Both the position numbers and the translations under genes were made by a program. The notes below the pieces were generated by a model, which did not search any database, was not told the origin of the DNA, and worked only from the letters and a program-made list of their open reading frames with translations. This document shows, piece after piece, positions 38,334 to 56,554 of a DNA stretch of 64,000 bases. This DNA comes from Prolixibacter bellariivorans ATCC BAA-1284 (GTDB lineage: Bacteria > Bacteroidota > Bacteroidia > Bacteroidales > Prolixibacteraceae), in contig NZ_JHXO01000009.1 in assembly GCF_000621705.1 (NCBI RefSeq), positions 186,001 through 250,000 of the forward strand, in the 5' to 3' direction. The first letter of the stretch is position 1. The number at the start of each line of letters is the position of its first letter.

Positions 38334-38834
38334 ATGAACTTACCTCCCTACGCTATTTTCCCGAATATTTCGGGTGACAAAGTCTCGTTGCGCCAAATTC
38401 AACCGTCCGATATTCCGGCCATTATTGACATCTCGTTCTATGACGCCGTCAAAGCTTCAACCACGGAAGAAGCAATGGAAATGCAGGAGAAAATCAATCA
38501 AGACTATGAGCAGCGCAAATCCATCCATTGGGGCATTTTCGACAATGCATCCGGCGATATCGTCGGTACGTGTGGGTTTTACCGGGGATTTCCCGAGGAT
38601 GCAGGAGAACTCGGATGTGTTTTGTTGCCTCAGTTCCGGGGACAAGGTTTTATGACCGCCGCCATGCAGTTAGCCATCGACTTTGGCATCGGGCACATGA
38701 AGCTCCGACGCATCTGGGCGGCTACCGCAACCGAAAATCATAAAGCAAGGAAGCTATTCGAACGACTCAACTTCAAAGAAGTAAGAGAACTACCAGATGG
38801 AGAAGTTGAGCTGGAGTTGGTGCAAGAAGCCTAA
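38334..38834 (+). CDS. GNAT family N-acetyltransferase
   Basis: This 166-residue protein matches the RimJ/RimL-type acetyltransferase group: ISGDKVSLRQIQPSDIPAI (about residues 11-29), GTCGFYRGFPEDAGELGC and the acetyl-CoA loop LPQFRGQGFMTAAMQLAIDF (about 98-117), in which RGQGFM supplies the pyrophosphate contacts. NHKARKLFERLNFKEV (about 139-154) closes the fold. It transfers acetyl from acetyl-CoA to an amino group; the acceptor is unknown. The gene is close to the repeat array that begins 16 bases after its stop. Confidence 0.88.
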   Translation: MNLPPYAIFPNISGDKVSLRQIQPSDIPAIIDISFYDAVKASTTEEAMEMQEKINQDYEQRKSIHWGIFDNASGDIVGTCGFYRGFPEDAGELGCVLLPQFRGQGFMTAAMQLAIDFGIGHMKLRRIWAATATENHKARKLFERLNFKEVRELPDGEVELELVQEA

Positions 38835-38849
38835 TTGTCGATAGATAGT

Positions 38850-40386
38850 CTACTCACCCAACCCTCTCTAACATAGAGAGGGCTCAGGACACTGCAAATT
38901 CTCAAGGACTTAAGTCCACCAGCAAAGCTATTGGAACCAAACGTCGATTCAACCACCGGCCAAGCCCCTCTTTACTTGTAGAGAGGGGTAATTCAGACGC
39001 AGTCTGGATGGAGTGAGTAGAACACCAGCCATTTCCGGCTGCACAATCTTTTCTACTCATCCCAACCCTCTCTAACATCGAGAGGGCTCAGGACACTGCC
39101 TTATATCGACGCCTAAATTTAAAACGAGAATCCTGTTCAGAAACGACCAATTAGAATAAAAACTACATCGGAGCACCAACTTGGCCGCTCTTTACTCGTA
39201 GAGAGGGGCAATCCGGCCACAGGTCGGATGGGGTGAGTAGATGATACCTAAATAAATTGCTCGATTCTTTTCAGCACCTGCCCCAAACTCTTACACTCTT
39301 CATTCTTTAATCTCAGAACATGCAGTCCATTGTGTCGTAATACTTCATCACGGTTATTATCATATCCTTTTTGAAAATCGTGAATTCGGCCGTCAACTTC
39401 TATTGCCAGCTTTTTCTCTGCACAATAGAAATCTGCGATAAAGTACAACGGATGCTTATTATCGTCAATTTGGTATACAATAGGATGCTGCCGAAGGAAC
39501 TTAAGACCATGAAATTTCCGGTTTCGCAAAACGCTCCATAAAAGCTTTTCTTCATCCGTCATACTTCTCCTTAGCCTTCTGGCCCGTTTGATAAAATAAT
39601 TGTCGCTCATATATAGTCTGGTTTAATAAAGTCAAGTTATGAAATAAGATCTACTCACCCAACCCTCTCTAACATAGAGAGGGCTCAGGACACTGCAAAT
39701 TTTCAGGGACGTAATTCCACCAGCAAAGCAATTGGAACCAAACGTCGATTCAACCACCGGCCACGCCCCTCTTTACTTGTAGAGAGGGGCAATTCAGACG
39801 CAGTCTGGATGGGGTGAGTAAACGTCAACCGTCTCAGGCTGCACAAATACTTTCTACTCACCCAACCCTCTCTAACATAGAGAGGGCTCAGGACACTGCA
39901 AATTCTCAGGGACTTAATTCCACCAGCAAAGCAATTGGAACCAAACATCGATTCAACCACCGGCCAAGCCCCTCTTTACTTGTAGAGAGGGGCAATTCAG
40001 ACGCAGTCTGGATGGGGTGAGTAAACGTCAACCGTCTCAGGCTGCACAAATACTTTCTAGTCACCCAACCCTCTCTAACATAGAGAGGGCTTAGGAAACT
40101 ACATGATTTCAAGGACTTAATTTCACCAGCAGAGCTATTGGAACCAAACGTCGATTCAACCACCGGCCACACCCCTCTTTACTTGTAGAGAGGGGCAATT
40201 CAGACGCAGTCTGGATGGGGTGAGTAAACATCAACCGTCTCAGGCTGCACAAATACTTTCTACTCACCCAACCCTCTCTAACATCGAGAGGGCTCAGGAC
40301 ACTGCAAATTTTCAGGGACGTAACTCCACCAGCAAAGCTATTGGAACCAAACGCTGCTCCAACCACCGGCCAAGCCCCTCTTTACT
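38850..40386. repeat. array of six 203-bp-period palindromic repeat units
   Basis: Units start at 38850, 39053, 39651, 39854, 40057 and 40260. The successive distances are 203, 598, 203, 203 and 203; the larger one contains the DUF559 gene. A full unit is about 170 bp, starts CTACTCACCC and ends GGGTGAGTAG or GGGTGAGTAA, i.e. terminal inverted repeats. Inside are the hairpins CCCTCTCT/AGAGAGGG and CCCCTCT/AGAGGGG and a CAGACgcaGTCTG stem. Units are joined by a spacer of about 33 bases with a shared CTGCACAA and T-rich end. The sixth unit is cut at 40386. Open frames of about 85 codons repeated within the array are by-products of the repetition. Confidence 0.9.
39248..39610 (-). CDS. DUF559 (Vsr-like) endonuclease-domain protein inside the repeat array
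   Basis: This 120-residue protein belongs to the DUF559 family: RRLRRSMTDEEKLLWSVLRN (residues 11-30), FHGLKFLRQHPI, then the PD-(D/E)XK-like core FIADFYCAEKKLAIEVDGR with Asp, Glu and Lys in place, ending in IHDFQKGYDNNRDEVLRHNG. These proteins resemble very short patch repair endonucleases, and their function in Bacteroidota is not established. It is placed exactly between two units of the array (8 bases after one, 41 bases before the next), read opposite to the adjacent GNAT gene. This bracketed position suggests that gene and repeats travel or are kept together. Confidence 0.8.
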   Translation of the reverse strand: MSDNYFIKRARRLRRSMTDEEKLLWSVLRNRKFHGLKFLRQHPIVYQIDDNKHPLYFIADFYCAEKKLAIEVDGRIHDFQKGYDNNRDEVLRHNGLHVLRLKNEECKSLGQVLKRIEQFI

Positions 40387-40487
40387 ATCTTTTCCCGAGC
40401 TGTCACACACATCATATACACTGGTTTTCAACAAAGAGCAAAAAAAACAACAACTTCCAGCCACTCGGTTTTCTGCTAAGATTTCGC

Positions 40488-40494
40488 TAATTTG
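40488..40494 (+). promoter_or_regulatory. -7-like TAATTTG element upstream of a short leader frame
   Basis: GCTAATTTGAAC with TAATTTG at 40488-40494, 19 bases before the leader ATG at 40514. A near copy of the whole region exists at 42621. Confidence 0.45.
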
Positions 40495-40513
40495 AACTAC
40501 ATAAAACCGACGA

Positions 40514-40564
40514 ATGGAAATGAACCATGCCATATTACTAAATCAGCACAGAAACGAGAATTAG
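40514..40564 (+). CDS. 16-residue leader peptide abutting the methyltransferase start
   Basis: ATG at 40514 opens a frame of 16 codons (MEMNHAILLNQHRNEN) whose TAG stop at 40562-40564 is immediately followed by the next gene's ATG, giving TAGATG. Such adjacency allows re-initiation by the same ribosome. It is preceded by the TAATTTG promoter element. Too short for family assignment; a chance frame is possible. Confidence 0.35.
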   Translation: MEMNHAILLNQHRNEN

Positions 40565-41590
40565 ATGACAGATAACCAAACAAATAAACAGCCACCCAAA
40601 ATATTAAGTTTCATAAAAACGTTGCTTCAAATCATCCTTTATATACCCATTCAAATAATCTTCATTCCTGTTGCTATTATTGGACTAACAGATGGAATTT
40701 ACAAGGGGATAATAAAAAGCAGGAAAATGGGGGTCTCTTTCTCGGCATGCCGCTCGCTTCAATACAAATGGTTCATGCATTATTTTAATATCAGACCGGA
40801 TCCCCTTTCCATTGCATTCACAAAAAAGTTTCCGTGTGAATCACATTTTGGTTTGTTGTCGACTTTTGGAGCTCTTATCATTTCTCAACGGTTATTCGGT
40901 TTCACCACCAGGTTGGGAAAAGTCGATGAGAAGGGTGAAGAGACCTTTATTTCCTTTGCTGGTCCACGGGTGCTCATGTTCGACTGCATAATGGAAAAAT
41001 ATATTGATGAAATGGAGCAGCTTGTCCTTCCGGGAGCTGGCTTTGATCTAATCGCGTTGCAATTTACGAAGGGGAAGAAAATAAAGGTCTTCGAACTCGA
41101 CCAGGTTAAAACACTGGATGTTAAAGTTGAAACATTGGAAAAAACCGGCATAAAGCATGATTGGATTACCTATATCCCGGTTGATTATTCAAATGAATCC
41201 TGGGTTGATAAACTATTAGGAGCTGGCTTTGATAAAACTAAAAAGACCTTGTTCCTTTGGCAAAGCGTCTCTCTGTTCTTGGAAGCTGAGCTTGTCAAAG
41301 AAACACTTAGGGAAATGGCTGATTTATGTGCAGATGGAAGTATCATCGCTCAAGACTTTTATTCCCAGGCATTCATATCAGGTGAAGCTTCAAAAACAGT
41401 TAAAAGAGCTGCAAGAATGATAGAAAAAAGGGAGCCCTGGAAATTCGGAATTGATATGAGAAATGAGCCTAACGCAGCCGTTGAATCATTTTTAAATGAA
41501 TGTGGATTAAGAATGACAGGAATAAGCCAGTTCGGAGAGAAACTGGGTATCGAACCATTTTACTGTATTGTTGAAGCTGAAAAGCTGTAA
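40565..41590 (+). CDS. class I SAM-dependent methyltransferase (leucine carboxyl methyltransferase type)
   Basis: This 341-residue protein has an unusual hydrophobic N-terminal segment (about residues 16-45, LLQIILYIPIQIIFIPVAII), suggesting membrane association, then a PF04072-type methyltransferase domain: FISFAGPRVLMFDCIMEKYI, the SAM loop LVLPGAGFDLIALQFTKGKK (about 155-174), FELDQVKTLDVKVETLEKTG, and LFLWQSVSLFLEAELVKETL. The family methylates carboxyl groups or small polyketide-like molecules, with substrate unknown here. Base composition is slightly more AT-rich than the flanking operons. It lies directly after the truncated end of the repeat array and may be part of the accessory region. 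Confidence 0.75.
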   Translation: MTDNQTNKQPPKILSFIKTLLQIILYIPIQIIFIPVAIIGLTDGIYKGIIKSRKMGVSFSACRSLQYKWFMHYFNIRPDPLSIAFTKKFPCESHFGLLSTFGALIISQRLFGFTTRLGKVDEKGEETFISFAGPRVLMFDCIMEKYIDEMEQLVLPGAGFDLIALQFTKGKKIKVFELDQVKTLDVKVETLEKTGIKHDWITYIPVDYSNESWVDKLLGAGFDKTKKTLFLWQSVSLFLEAELVKETLREMADLCADGSIIAQDFYSQAFISGEASKTVKRAARMIEKREPWKFGIDMRNEPNAAVESFLNECGLRMTGISQFGEKLGIEPFYCIVEAEKL

Positions 41591-55385: not shown

Positions 55386-55396
55386 GGCTCCCCATT

Positions 55397-55590
55397 GGTG
55401 GGGACTGTTCGCTAAGTGGTGGGCGGACCTCGCTGACTGGTGGGGGTTGTTCGCTAAGTGGTGGCCGGACTTCGCTGACTGGTGGGGATCGTTCGCTAAG
55501 TGGTGGGCAGACTTCGCCGACTAGTGGGGATTGTTCGCCAAGTGGTGGTCAGACTCCGCTGAGTGGTGGCCGGGCTCCGCTACCGGGTGA
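55397..55590. repeat. 42-bp tandem repeat (four copies plus a partial)
   Basis: Four units of 42 bp begin at 55397, 55439, 55481 and 55523; each is two 21-bp halves of the pattern GGTGGGG...TTCGCTAAGT and GGTGGG...TTCGCTGACT. A degenerate partial copy follows. The period is a multiple of three, so every frame stays open in at least part of the array and a spurious 196-codon frame reads through it. The unit has no start codon or promoter of its own. Confidence 0.85.
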
Positions 55591-56075: not shown

Positions 56076-56554
56076 CGACTATCCCCGAAAAGAGGTCGTG
56101 ATCAAAAGTTCATAAGCCATTTACTTGCCGGAGAAGCCATGGGCAAAAGTCCATGAACCATTTACTCGCCGGGGAAGCCATGGGCAAAAGTCCATGAGCC
56201 GTTTACTCGCCGGGGAAGCCATGGGCAAAAGTCCATGAGCCATTTACTCGCCGGGGAAGCCATGATCAAAAATTAATACCTCATAGCCTATCTCCTGCTG
56301 CGCGCGCAATAAATCGCCTTTGCCCCGCTTTTGTTTTATGATAAAAAACGCTAATTTCAGTGGTGAAAACGAAACGACTGGTCAAAACCAAGATGAAGAA
56401 TACCTGACAGAACATAATAAGTACACAATCCATCCCTAAATGAATGTATAACCACAACTCATCTAATGACATAAAATCAATAACAAGCATTACAATATCT
56501 CCTAGCTAGCGTTCATGCTGAATAAGTATTACATAAAAAACAAAAAAAATACTA
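56076..56554. other. 479-base region without a gene, holding a minisatellite
   Basis: Its left part is the 41-bp tandem repeat (56102-56270). The rest has only short frames. AACGCTAATTTC near 56345 resembles the GCTAATTTG element found upstream of four other genes but is one base off and faces no nearby gene start. Confidence 0.4.
56102..56270. repeat. 41-bp tandem repeat (about four copies)
   Basis: Four successive copies of a 41-bp unit contain GCCATGGGCAAAAGTCCATG, then a (G/A)CC(A/G)TTTACTCGCCGGGGAA stretch. Each copy has an internal CATGG/CCATG inverted pair. The first copy is more divergent (CATAAGCC, TTGCCGGAGAA) and the last loses its end. The copies begin about 27 bases after the DsrE-like gene. 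Confidence 0.85.

Follow-up and report, generated by a model that had tools for sequence, protein, structure and literature searches.

The stretch analyzed here, called the window throughout, comprises 64,000 nucleotides of Prolixibacter bellariivorans ATCC BAA-1284 (contig NZ_JHXO01000009.1, positions 186,001 to 250,000), and the system in question is a small DUF559 nuclease gene together with the palindromic units among which it lies. The gene (39248-39610, minus strand, 120 aa) belongs to PF04480 (E 3.6e-28), the sole Pfam family found in it. Around it stand five complete units and one truncated unit, all on the plus strand in a single orientation, and at this site both the nuclease and the units are intergenic.

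Direct reading placed units 1 to 6 at 38850-39020, 39053-39240, 39651-39820, 39854-40023, 40057-40226 and 40260-40386, the last being truncated inside its right hairpin. The complete units have inverted ends, CTACTCACCC ... GGGTGAGTAG, a left-end hairpin CCCTCTCT/AGAGAGGG, a right-end hairpin CCCCTCTTTAC..GTAGAGAGGGG and a third short stem, CAGAC/GTCTG. Unit 1, for example, shows the ends CTACTCACCC / GAGTGAGTAG, a left hairpin at 38862-38882, a right hairpin and the CAGAC/GTCTG stem; the left end of unit 5 reads CTAGTCACCC. The usual length is 170-171 bp. Unit 2, at 188 bp, is longer and divergent, being 69% identical to unit 3, as against 98% for unit 4, 95% for unit 1, 94% for unit 6 (127 bases) and 92% for unit 5. 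The six starts, the inverted ends, the two hairpins and the short stem had been proposed in an original prediction made from the letters of this stretch, and all were borne out, by direct reading and, for the stem, by covariation.

The same prediction included an exact 203-bp period with a conserved spacer. This held for units 3-6, a strict tandem array (period 203, 3.6 copies and 92% matches at 39650-40386 according to Tandem Repeats Finder) whose 33-bp spacer between units 3 and 4 (39821-39853) is repeated at 40024-40056 and 40227-40259; unit 2 is longer and divergent, and unit 6 is truncated. The gene does not replace one interval exactly, as had been supposed: the nuclease module (39241-39650) occupies the spacer position between units 2 and 3, with no unit replaced. 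The starts of these two units are 598 bp apart because the gene sits where a 32-33 bp spacer normally is.

For the CAGAC/GTCTG stem, we transcribed nine distinct right ends from the window's genome, excluding one short partial match (L026), and compared them with 500 shuffles. Paired cells made up 96.8%, and four of the seven pairs had changed on both sides. None of the shuffles reached the observed covariation score or the paired percentage; for the number of doubly changed pairs 11 did so, and for the number of further pair types 92. Given these compensatory changes, the stem appears to be maintained as a stem, i.e., one stem of the unit appears to be under purifying selection. Over the whole 64 kb there were seven pyrimidine-arm hairpins with a stem of at least 7, six of them inside the array. 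A search of 38700-40600 against Rfam, at E up to 1, returned no known RNA family. The unit right ends, GTGAGTA(G), were compared with the GTAG/CGTC tag of repetitive extragenic palindromic (REP) sequences, a resemblance that may be due to chance.

Used as a query against the genome, unit 3 had 29 matches with E up to 1, of which 19 had E <1e-10, namely the six of the window array and 13 elsewhere, the contigs involved being C1, C2, C6, C7, C10 and C13 overall; weaker matches also lay on C3, and there was none on C8. It is on C8 that the second of the two DUF559 genes of this genome resides (L003 4301-4699), enclosed, on direct reading, by two copies, in direct orientation, of another double-hairpin unit with outer CACCCC/GGGGTG, inner hairpins of the CCCCTGAAGGGG and CCCCTTTAGGG types and ends GGGGTGAA, likewise compared with the REP tag. 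Since both DUF559 genes of the genome are enclosed by units, they follow one plan, with unit sequences that differ. This genome has more solo units than nuclease genes. At C2:414444-416453 (L018, L020), an open reading frame (ORF) of ~440 aa has the left half of a unit on one side and a complete unit on the other, about 2 kb apart.

In a 60-sequence alignment of the window's protein, E21, Q41, D60, E71, D73, H77 and R87 were invariant. A profile search of solved structures retrieved 3hrl, an endonuclease-like protein from Neisseria (E 8.7e-34), the homing endonuclease I-Bth0305I (3r3p, E 4.7e-7) and PvuRts1I (E 0.0026). The structure model built from the 60 sequences (pLDDT 85.5), which supersedes a poor single-sequence model (pLDDT 43.9), matched the same three proteins in Foldseek: 3hrl at E 2e-5, PvuRts1I at E 7.1e-4 and I-Bth0305I at E 1.5e-3 (TM 0.58 on query length). 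By profile and predicted fold the protein is of the Vsr-like/EDxHD kind, in keeping with the Vsr resemblance originally attributed to DUF559, and, judged by sequence and predicted fold together, the catalytic domain is homologous to that of I-Bth0305I. The ratio of nonsynonymous to synonymous substitution (dN/dS) was 0.099 between the window gene and its ortholog in another genome of the genus (G297) and 0.09-0.18 in three comparisons of C8-type genes. With values of 0.09-0.18 in all four comparisons, the DUF559 gene is under purifying selection.

Association of DUF559 genes with palindromes

PF04480 matches at E up to 0.001 occurred in 170 of 296 genomes of the same phylum. From the top of this genome list we hand-picked 80 standalone loci with short-frame matches (L092-L171), excluding long-frame matches and some near contig starts; contig ends truncate several of the loci, several genomes are represented more than once, and a domain length of ~315 bases was used throughout. 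Only perfect, GC-rich hairpins with a stem of at least 8 and a loop of 3-9, within 400 bp, were counted. Such hairpins lay to the left of the domain in 58/80 loci, to the right in 48/80, on either side in 68/80 and on both sides in 38/80. Among control ORFs of the same stretches, only 2 of 228 had them on both sides (left 19, right 20), and the two-sided counts were 8/2178 for random intervals and 1/115 for small ORFs. For 38/80 against 2/228, Fisher p = 8e-24, the loci not being independent by descent. Hairpin density was 2.9-4.5 per kb up to 200 bp from the domain, compared with 0.13 per kb more than 1.2 kb away.

The two flanks of a gene also share sequence. In 41/80 loci a direct repeat scoring 40 bits or more was common to both flanks, as opposed to 17 of 6320 mismatched flank pairs, meaning that about half of the DUF559 genes lie between copies of a local repeat of their own; for inverted repeats the counts were 18/80 and 28/6320. 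A tandem array (period 60-500) was present within 1 kb of the gene in only 7/80 loci, so the array is not essential.

Across phyla, a single query, the palindrome-flanked DUF559 domain of L035, supplied a non-random sample of 80 named loci, six of which were dropped from the flank count on account of short flanks. Their titles range over alpha-, beta-, gamma-, delta- and zeta-type Proteobacteria, Poribacteria, Nitrospirota, Chloroflexi, Acidobacteria, Gemmatimonadales, Victivallaceae, Neomarinimicrobiota, Ignavibacteria and Clostridia. Hairpins were found on both sides in 38/74 and on either side in 53/74, the corresponding figures for random intervals being 21/2229 and 335/2229; the two Ignavibacteria records had a hairpin on a single side. 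The idea that gene and palindromes make up a system, and do not coincide by chance, is therefore sustained by three comparisons: hairpins on both flanks, shared direct repeats and the cross-phylum count.

In the two locus sets combined (hairpins within 400 bp of DUF559, 16 off-centre named loci excluded), the 5' arm was at least 80% pyrimidine in 245 of 270 near hairpins and the reverse held in two, the figures for far hairpins being 34 and 2 of 123. Outside the hairpin, a C4 run no more than 25 nt from the 5' foot, or a G4 run equally close to the 3' foot, accompanied 166/270 near hairpins (opposite polarity, 36/270) and 39/123 far ones (15/123). The common anatomy, realized in many sequences, is an outer C-run/G-run with an inner pyrimidine-purine hairpin. 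The commonest hairpin arm beside DUF559 genes is CCCTCTCCC. Within 10 nt, on either strand, a T-run occurred beside only 25 of the 154 near hairpins of the 80 same-phylum loci, and a terminator role was consequently rejected as a general reading.

At the level of whole genomes, the commonest palindrome, CCCTCTCCN(3-6)GGAGAGGG, was present in 47/126 genomes with a clear DUF559 gene and in 13/170 others (odds ratio 7.2, p 5e-10, a statistic that ignores phylogeny). A clear gene is one with E <1e-12, a cut-off set after seeing the data, and these counts were copied by hand. Within families the numbers are small: DUF559 genomes against others gave 4/6 vs 0/1 (f3), 1/2 vs 0/8 (f4), 0/5 vs 0/1 (f5), 4/12 vs 3/17 (f6) and 3/3 vs 2/4 (f10). 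The backward control pattern had zero matches in every genome shown. By the same kind of pattern search, the window's own genome holds no copy of this palindrome. An extreme expansion was seen in G275, with 149 copies of CCCTCTCC..GGAGAGGG and one DUF559 match.

The DUF559 gene ycjD of E. coli K-12 (L331 3040-3830) has, on direct reading, a CCCCTCACCCTAACCCTCTCCCC-type element toward fabI and a long inverted repeat toward sapF. Neither is counted by the strict hairpin finder, and scanning this E. coli region with a strict pattern of the ycjD palindrome found nothing. A fabI-ycjD-sapF query was at least 80% covered at one place in 3334 of 5426 E. coli genomes. For two strains without ycjD, a simple insertion of the gene was considered and rejected, the sapF side being occupied there by an efflux operon. 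On two cyanobacterial plasmids (L332, L333), DUF559 genes adjoin DUF1156 genes.

Comparison within the genus

We compared the window's genome (G000) with three others of the genus, G296, G297 and G298; the four carry two, two, one and five PF04480 matches, respectively, two of the five in G298 being partial or broken. The window's site was recognized by the same adjoining GNAT gene. In G296 it contains no DUF559 but a short unit (~65 bp), followed ~300 bp on by a full one, and in G297 it shows degraded remnants of units; G298 had no match to the GNAT gene at this site. Elsewhere, at a different locus, G297 carries a five-unit array with an orthologous module, its DUF559 protein being 84% identical to the window's and the match being bounded by unit ends. 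The flanking gene of that locus borders, in G296, a 363-bp-period array of short units.

The C8-type block precedes a ferredoxin-type gene (so named from its sequence, without a family search) in G000 and follows it in G296. In G298 the block stands behind a truncated ORF and the ferredoxin-type gene is missing; in G297 this gene is present without DUF559. Further families of units were met in the genus. In G298 (L328 1223-3044), a third unit family forms an array of 264-bp period that contains two DUF559 genes (132 aa) of identical sequence, spaced 1423 = 631 + 3 x 264; in G296 (L329 797-1862), a fourth family, with CCTCTCCCCA..TGGGGAGAGG hairpins, supplies the repeats on either side of another DUF559 gene. 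Among the few blocks read, the pairing of gene and unit looked constant within the genus, the window type going with CTACTCACC units (G000, G297) and the C8 type with CACCCC units (G000, G296, G298), which may be due to common descent of the block.

Identical arrays in related strains had been named beforehand as evidence against a mobile system; array make-up and position differ among these genomes of the genus. These differences point to block movement and later tandem amplification, with no single transposition event seen at the base level.

DUF559 cassettes within protein genes

In 12 of the 30 loci retrieved by the PF04480 search of the phylum, the domain lay in an open frame of at least 600 residues. 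Pfam, run on ten of the 12 (L037 and L050 left out), placed DUF559 within or behind host domains, namely those of leucyl-tRNA synthetase (LeuRS, two), HsdR (four), the cobalamin-dependent methionine synthase MetH (one), an HsdM/N6 methylase, a type ISP enzyme and an N6/N4 methylase (one each). No intein family was found in the ten cassettes at E up to 1e-8. The hairpins beside in-frame DUF559 are translated, as in the peptide SPLPLGEDLGEG.

LeuRS was surveyed in 41 genomes of one family, and its N-terminal part was seen in 40 (G369 excepted). The loop before the editing-domain motif contains an intact DUF559 in G103, G389 and G377 and a degenerate copy in G356; in the remaining 36 of the 40 the two LeuRS parts adjoin. 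Among the 31 loci read letter by letter (G053 included), five had an insert or relic and the others mostly a short variable loop. Judging from these sequences, the cassette position is presumably a place where the host protein tolerates insertions.

The LeuRS loop of L194, L205 and L208 carries other repeat-like peptides (e.g., VIPSEAKESAK, VIASEAKQSH) and no nuclease. The degenerate insert of G356 (L191) lacks the DGxxH motif and stays in frame, perhaps as a domesticated relic. At G369 C73:3991-4329, a DUF559 match lies in a 1070-aa open frame, the one strong part that the LeuRS query brought up in this genome. An HsdR-like frame (L056 175-3315) has both GIY-YIG (residues 251-317) and DUF559 in frame, and small GIY-YIG genes might form part of comparable systems.

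A probable mobile system and its alternatives

We regard it as probable, on balance, that the DUF559 gene and the units constitute one mobile system, in which a small, homing-like endonuclease of the Vsr-like/EDxHD kind is co-mobile with the palindromic units that flank it. Each unit consists of an outer inverted repeat (C-run/G-run) with a hairpin inside each end, the 5' arm being pyrimidine-rich. The nuclease might cut or nick its target, perhaps an extruded unit hairpin or a site devoid of units, and repair of the break would copy the unit-nuclease-unit block, or a lone unit, into it. Spread would then be homing-like, with many non-autonomous solo units mobilized by the nuclease. Unequal recombination between direct copies would produce tandem arrays with one unit-plus-spacer period, which would account for the fixed period, and within protein genes survival would be limited to in-frame, stop-free copies. 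Such a mechanism would explain the direct unit copies on both sides, the solo units, the in-frame survivors, the patchy distribution and the purifying selection.

The pairing across many bacterial groups, even within the frames of other genes, suggests a widespread kind of mobile DNA. A broader proposal, which we put forward tentatively, is that DUF559 nucleases are the mobilizing enzymes of pan-bacterial palindromic elements with pyrimidine-arm hairpins, existing in nuclease-bearing and solo forms and also in frame in essential and restriction genes. If this were true, the in-frame palindromic elements of the kind known from Rickettsia would gain an enzyme, and common CCCTCTCCC-type repeats would be traces of a homing-like nuclease. 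A partner nuclease recurring from Proteobacteria to Chloroflexi and Clostridia would provide scattered palindromic repeats with an agent. It would also assign a function to the large, uncharacterized DUF559 family and open a way for new peptides and domains to get into proteins.

The arrangement of a nuclease gene between copies of a short palindromic repeat, which also occurs solo at dispersed places, recalls REP sequences and their REP-associated tyrosine transposases (RAYT); the enzyme here, however, is DUF559, with a Vsr-like/EDxHD fold, not a Y1/HUH transposase, and the units are ~170-190 bp long with two hairpins. Miniature inverted-repeat transposable elements (MITEs) are similar in being short and dispersed, with terminal inverted repeats (here CTACTCACCC / GGGTGAGTAG) and solo copies, but here no target-site duplication was readable, and a transposase, for which no search was made, was not identified. 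The catalytic domain is homologous to that of the EDxHD homing endonuclease I-Bth0305I, while the present protein stands outside any intron or intein, has 120 residues without a long extra DNA-binding region and is found on palindromic units.

REP/RAYT systems, EDxHD homing endonucleases, Rickettsia palindromic elements (RPE) and CCCTCTCCC palindromes have each been described earlier (PMC3733652, PMC9403480, PMC3943268, PMC10969869, PMC2869309), GTAG-tagged repeats being the subject of PMC3733652, and a Thermosynechococcus DUF559 gene has been assigned to the EDxHD family (PMC9403480). Among the papers listed by searches of the non-subscription literature, none joined DUF559 to palindromic repeats in its title or shown abstract. 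RPE encode peptides in frame within unrelated protein genes, and the passages of PMC10969869 consulted here name no mobilizing enzyme for them. Relatives of the window's intergenic copy share such in-frame residence (in LeuRS, HsdR, MetH and methylase frames); the difference, in a comparison by description, is that some inserts here bear a nuclease domain. In Enterobacter sp. 638, palindromes of the form CCCTCTCCCXX(X)GGGAGAGGG (CCCTCTCCC) have the same hairpin as the commonest DUF559-side arm, but they are presumed transcription terminators and are not linked to a nuclease gene in the passages of PMC2869309 consulted here. The system is kept apart from RAYT, intron homing and MITEs because defining features of these classes were not observed here.

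The main competing explanation, which we consider unlikely, is that another enzyme (e.g., of the Y1/HUH, RAYT/IS200 kind, acting on hairpins) moves the units, DUF559 being a passenger or parasite. A hairpin with a short outer tag does resemble REP anatomy, solo units outnumber nuclease genes, and some genomes have the palindromes with no clear DUF559 match. The link of DUF559 to palindromes across many phyla and unit sequences speaks against this, weakly, because the loci were chosen by DUF559 and other enzymes were not searched for; the purifying selection on the gene is likewise weak evidence. That the array is ordinary satellite DNA, made by tandem duplication around a gene present by accident, seems highly improbable: an exact 203-bp period with a conserved spacer is what unequal recombination would yield, but the flank association tests contradict it (38/80, 41/80 and 38/74 against their controls), single units are dispersed in the window's genome, and G298 has its two identical DUF559 genes in an array of another unit family.

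Quite improbable, too, is a cellular role for DUF559 as a Vsr-like mismatch-repair nuclease, beside which terminators or repair-prone sequences would gather as palindromes. Such a function has been proposed for Caulobacter VsrA, a DUF559 protein (PMC12907096), and the CCCTCTCCC palindromes of Enterobacter sp. 638 are presumed terminators (PMC2869309); against it stand the scarcity of T-runs beside near hairpins (25/154), the damage that terminating cassettes in LeuRS, HsdR and MetH frames should do to the host gene, and a patchy distribution (170/296 genomes, many with several copies). Somewhat less probable still is a defense or addiction island, the nuclease cutting invading DNA and the units marking self or controlling nuclease expression. 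The PADLOC matches that favor it are weak (E 3.5e-5 to a methyl-directed restriction enzyme for the C8 protein and E 1.6e-4 for the window protein), and in the few same-genus loci read no recurrent partner gene adjoins DUF559, the immediate neighbors being units.

Several observations weigh against the proposed homing-like system itself. A strict hairpin is missing on one or both sides in 42 of the 80 same-phylum loci (12 have none), and 21 of the 74 named loci have no hairpins, 18 of these being Bacteroidetes-type by title. All loci were chosen by DUF559, with no search begun from palindromes; in the genome survey, the commonest palindrome also occurs in 13 of the 170 genomes without a clear DUF559, among which G086 has 32 copies and no DUF559 match. 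Protein similarity and hairpin-arm similarity were uncorrelated across families, the Spearman coefficient over 77 loci being 0.02, a value reached in 184 of 500 permutations. The predicted fold is equally or more like the modification-dependent enzyme PvuRts1I (E 7.1e-4) than I-Bth0305I (1.5e-3), and the VsrA proposal (PMC12907096) offers the family another function. As to movement, the strain comparison revealed array differences but no clean empty site with a target-site duplication, either for the C8 gene or for the solo unit L017, in the three same-genus genomes; at the L017 site, unit ends matched two short stretches in G297 and nothing between the flank matches in G296, and no duplication was readable. 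The C8-type blocks of G000, G296 and G298 lie in one neighborhood, so that local rearrangement or deletion is possible. In LeuRS, too, there was no clean empty site, the cassette taking the place of a short variable loop, and the two E. coli strains without ycjD carry the efflux operon beside sapF.

Apart from the array around the nuclease gene, the window contains further tandem arrays at 55396-55569 (42-bp, 21-bp, period) and 56103-56271 (41-bp period).

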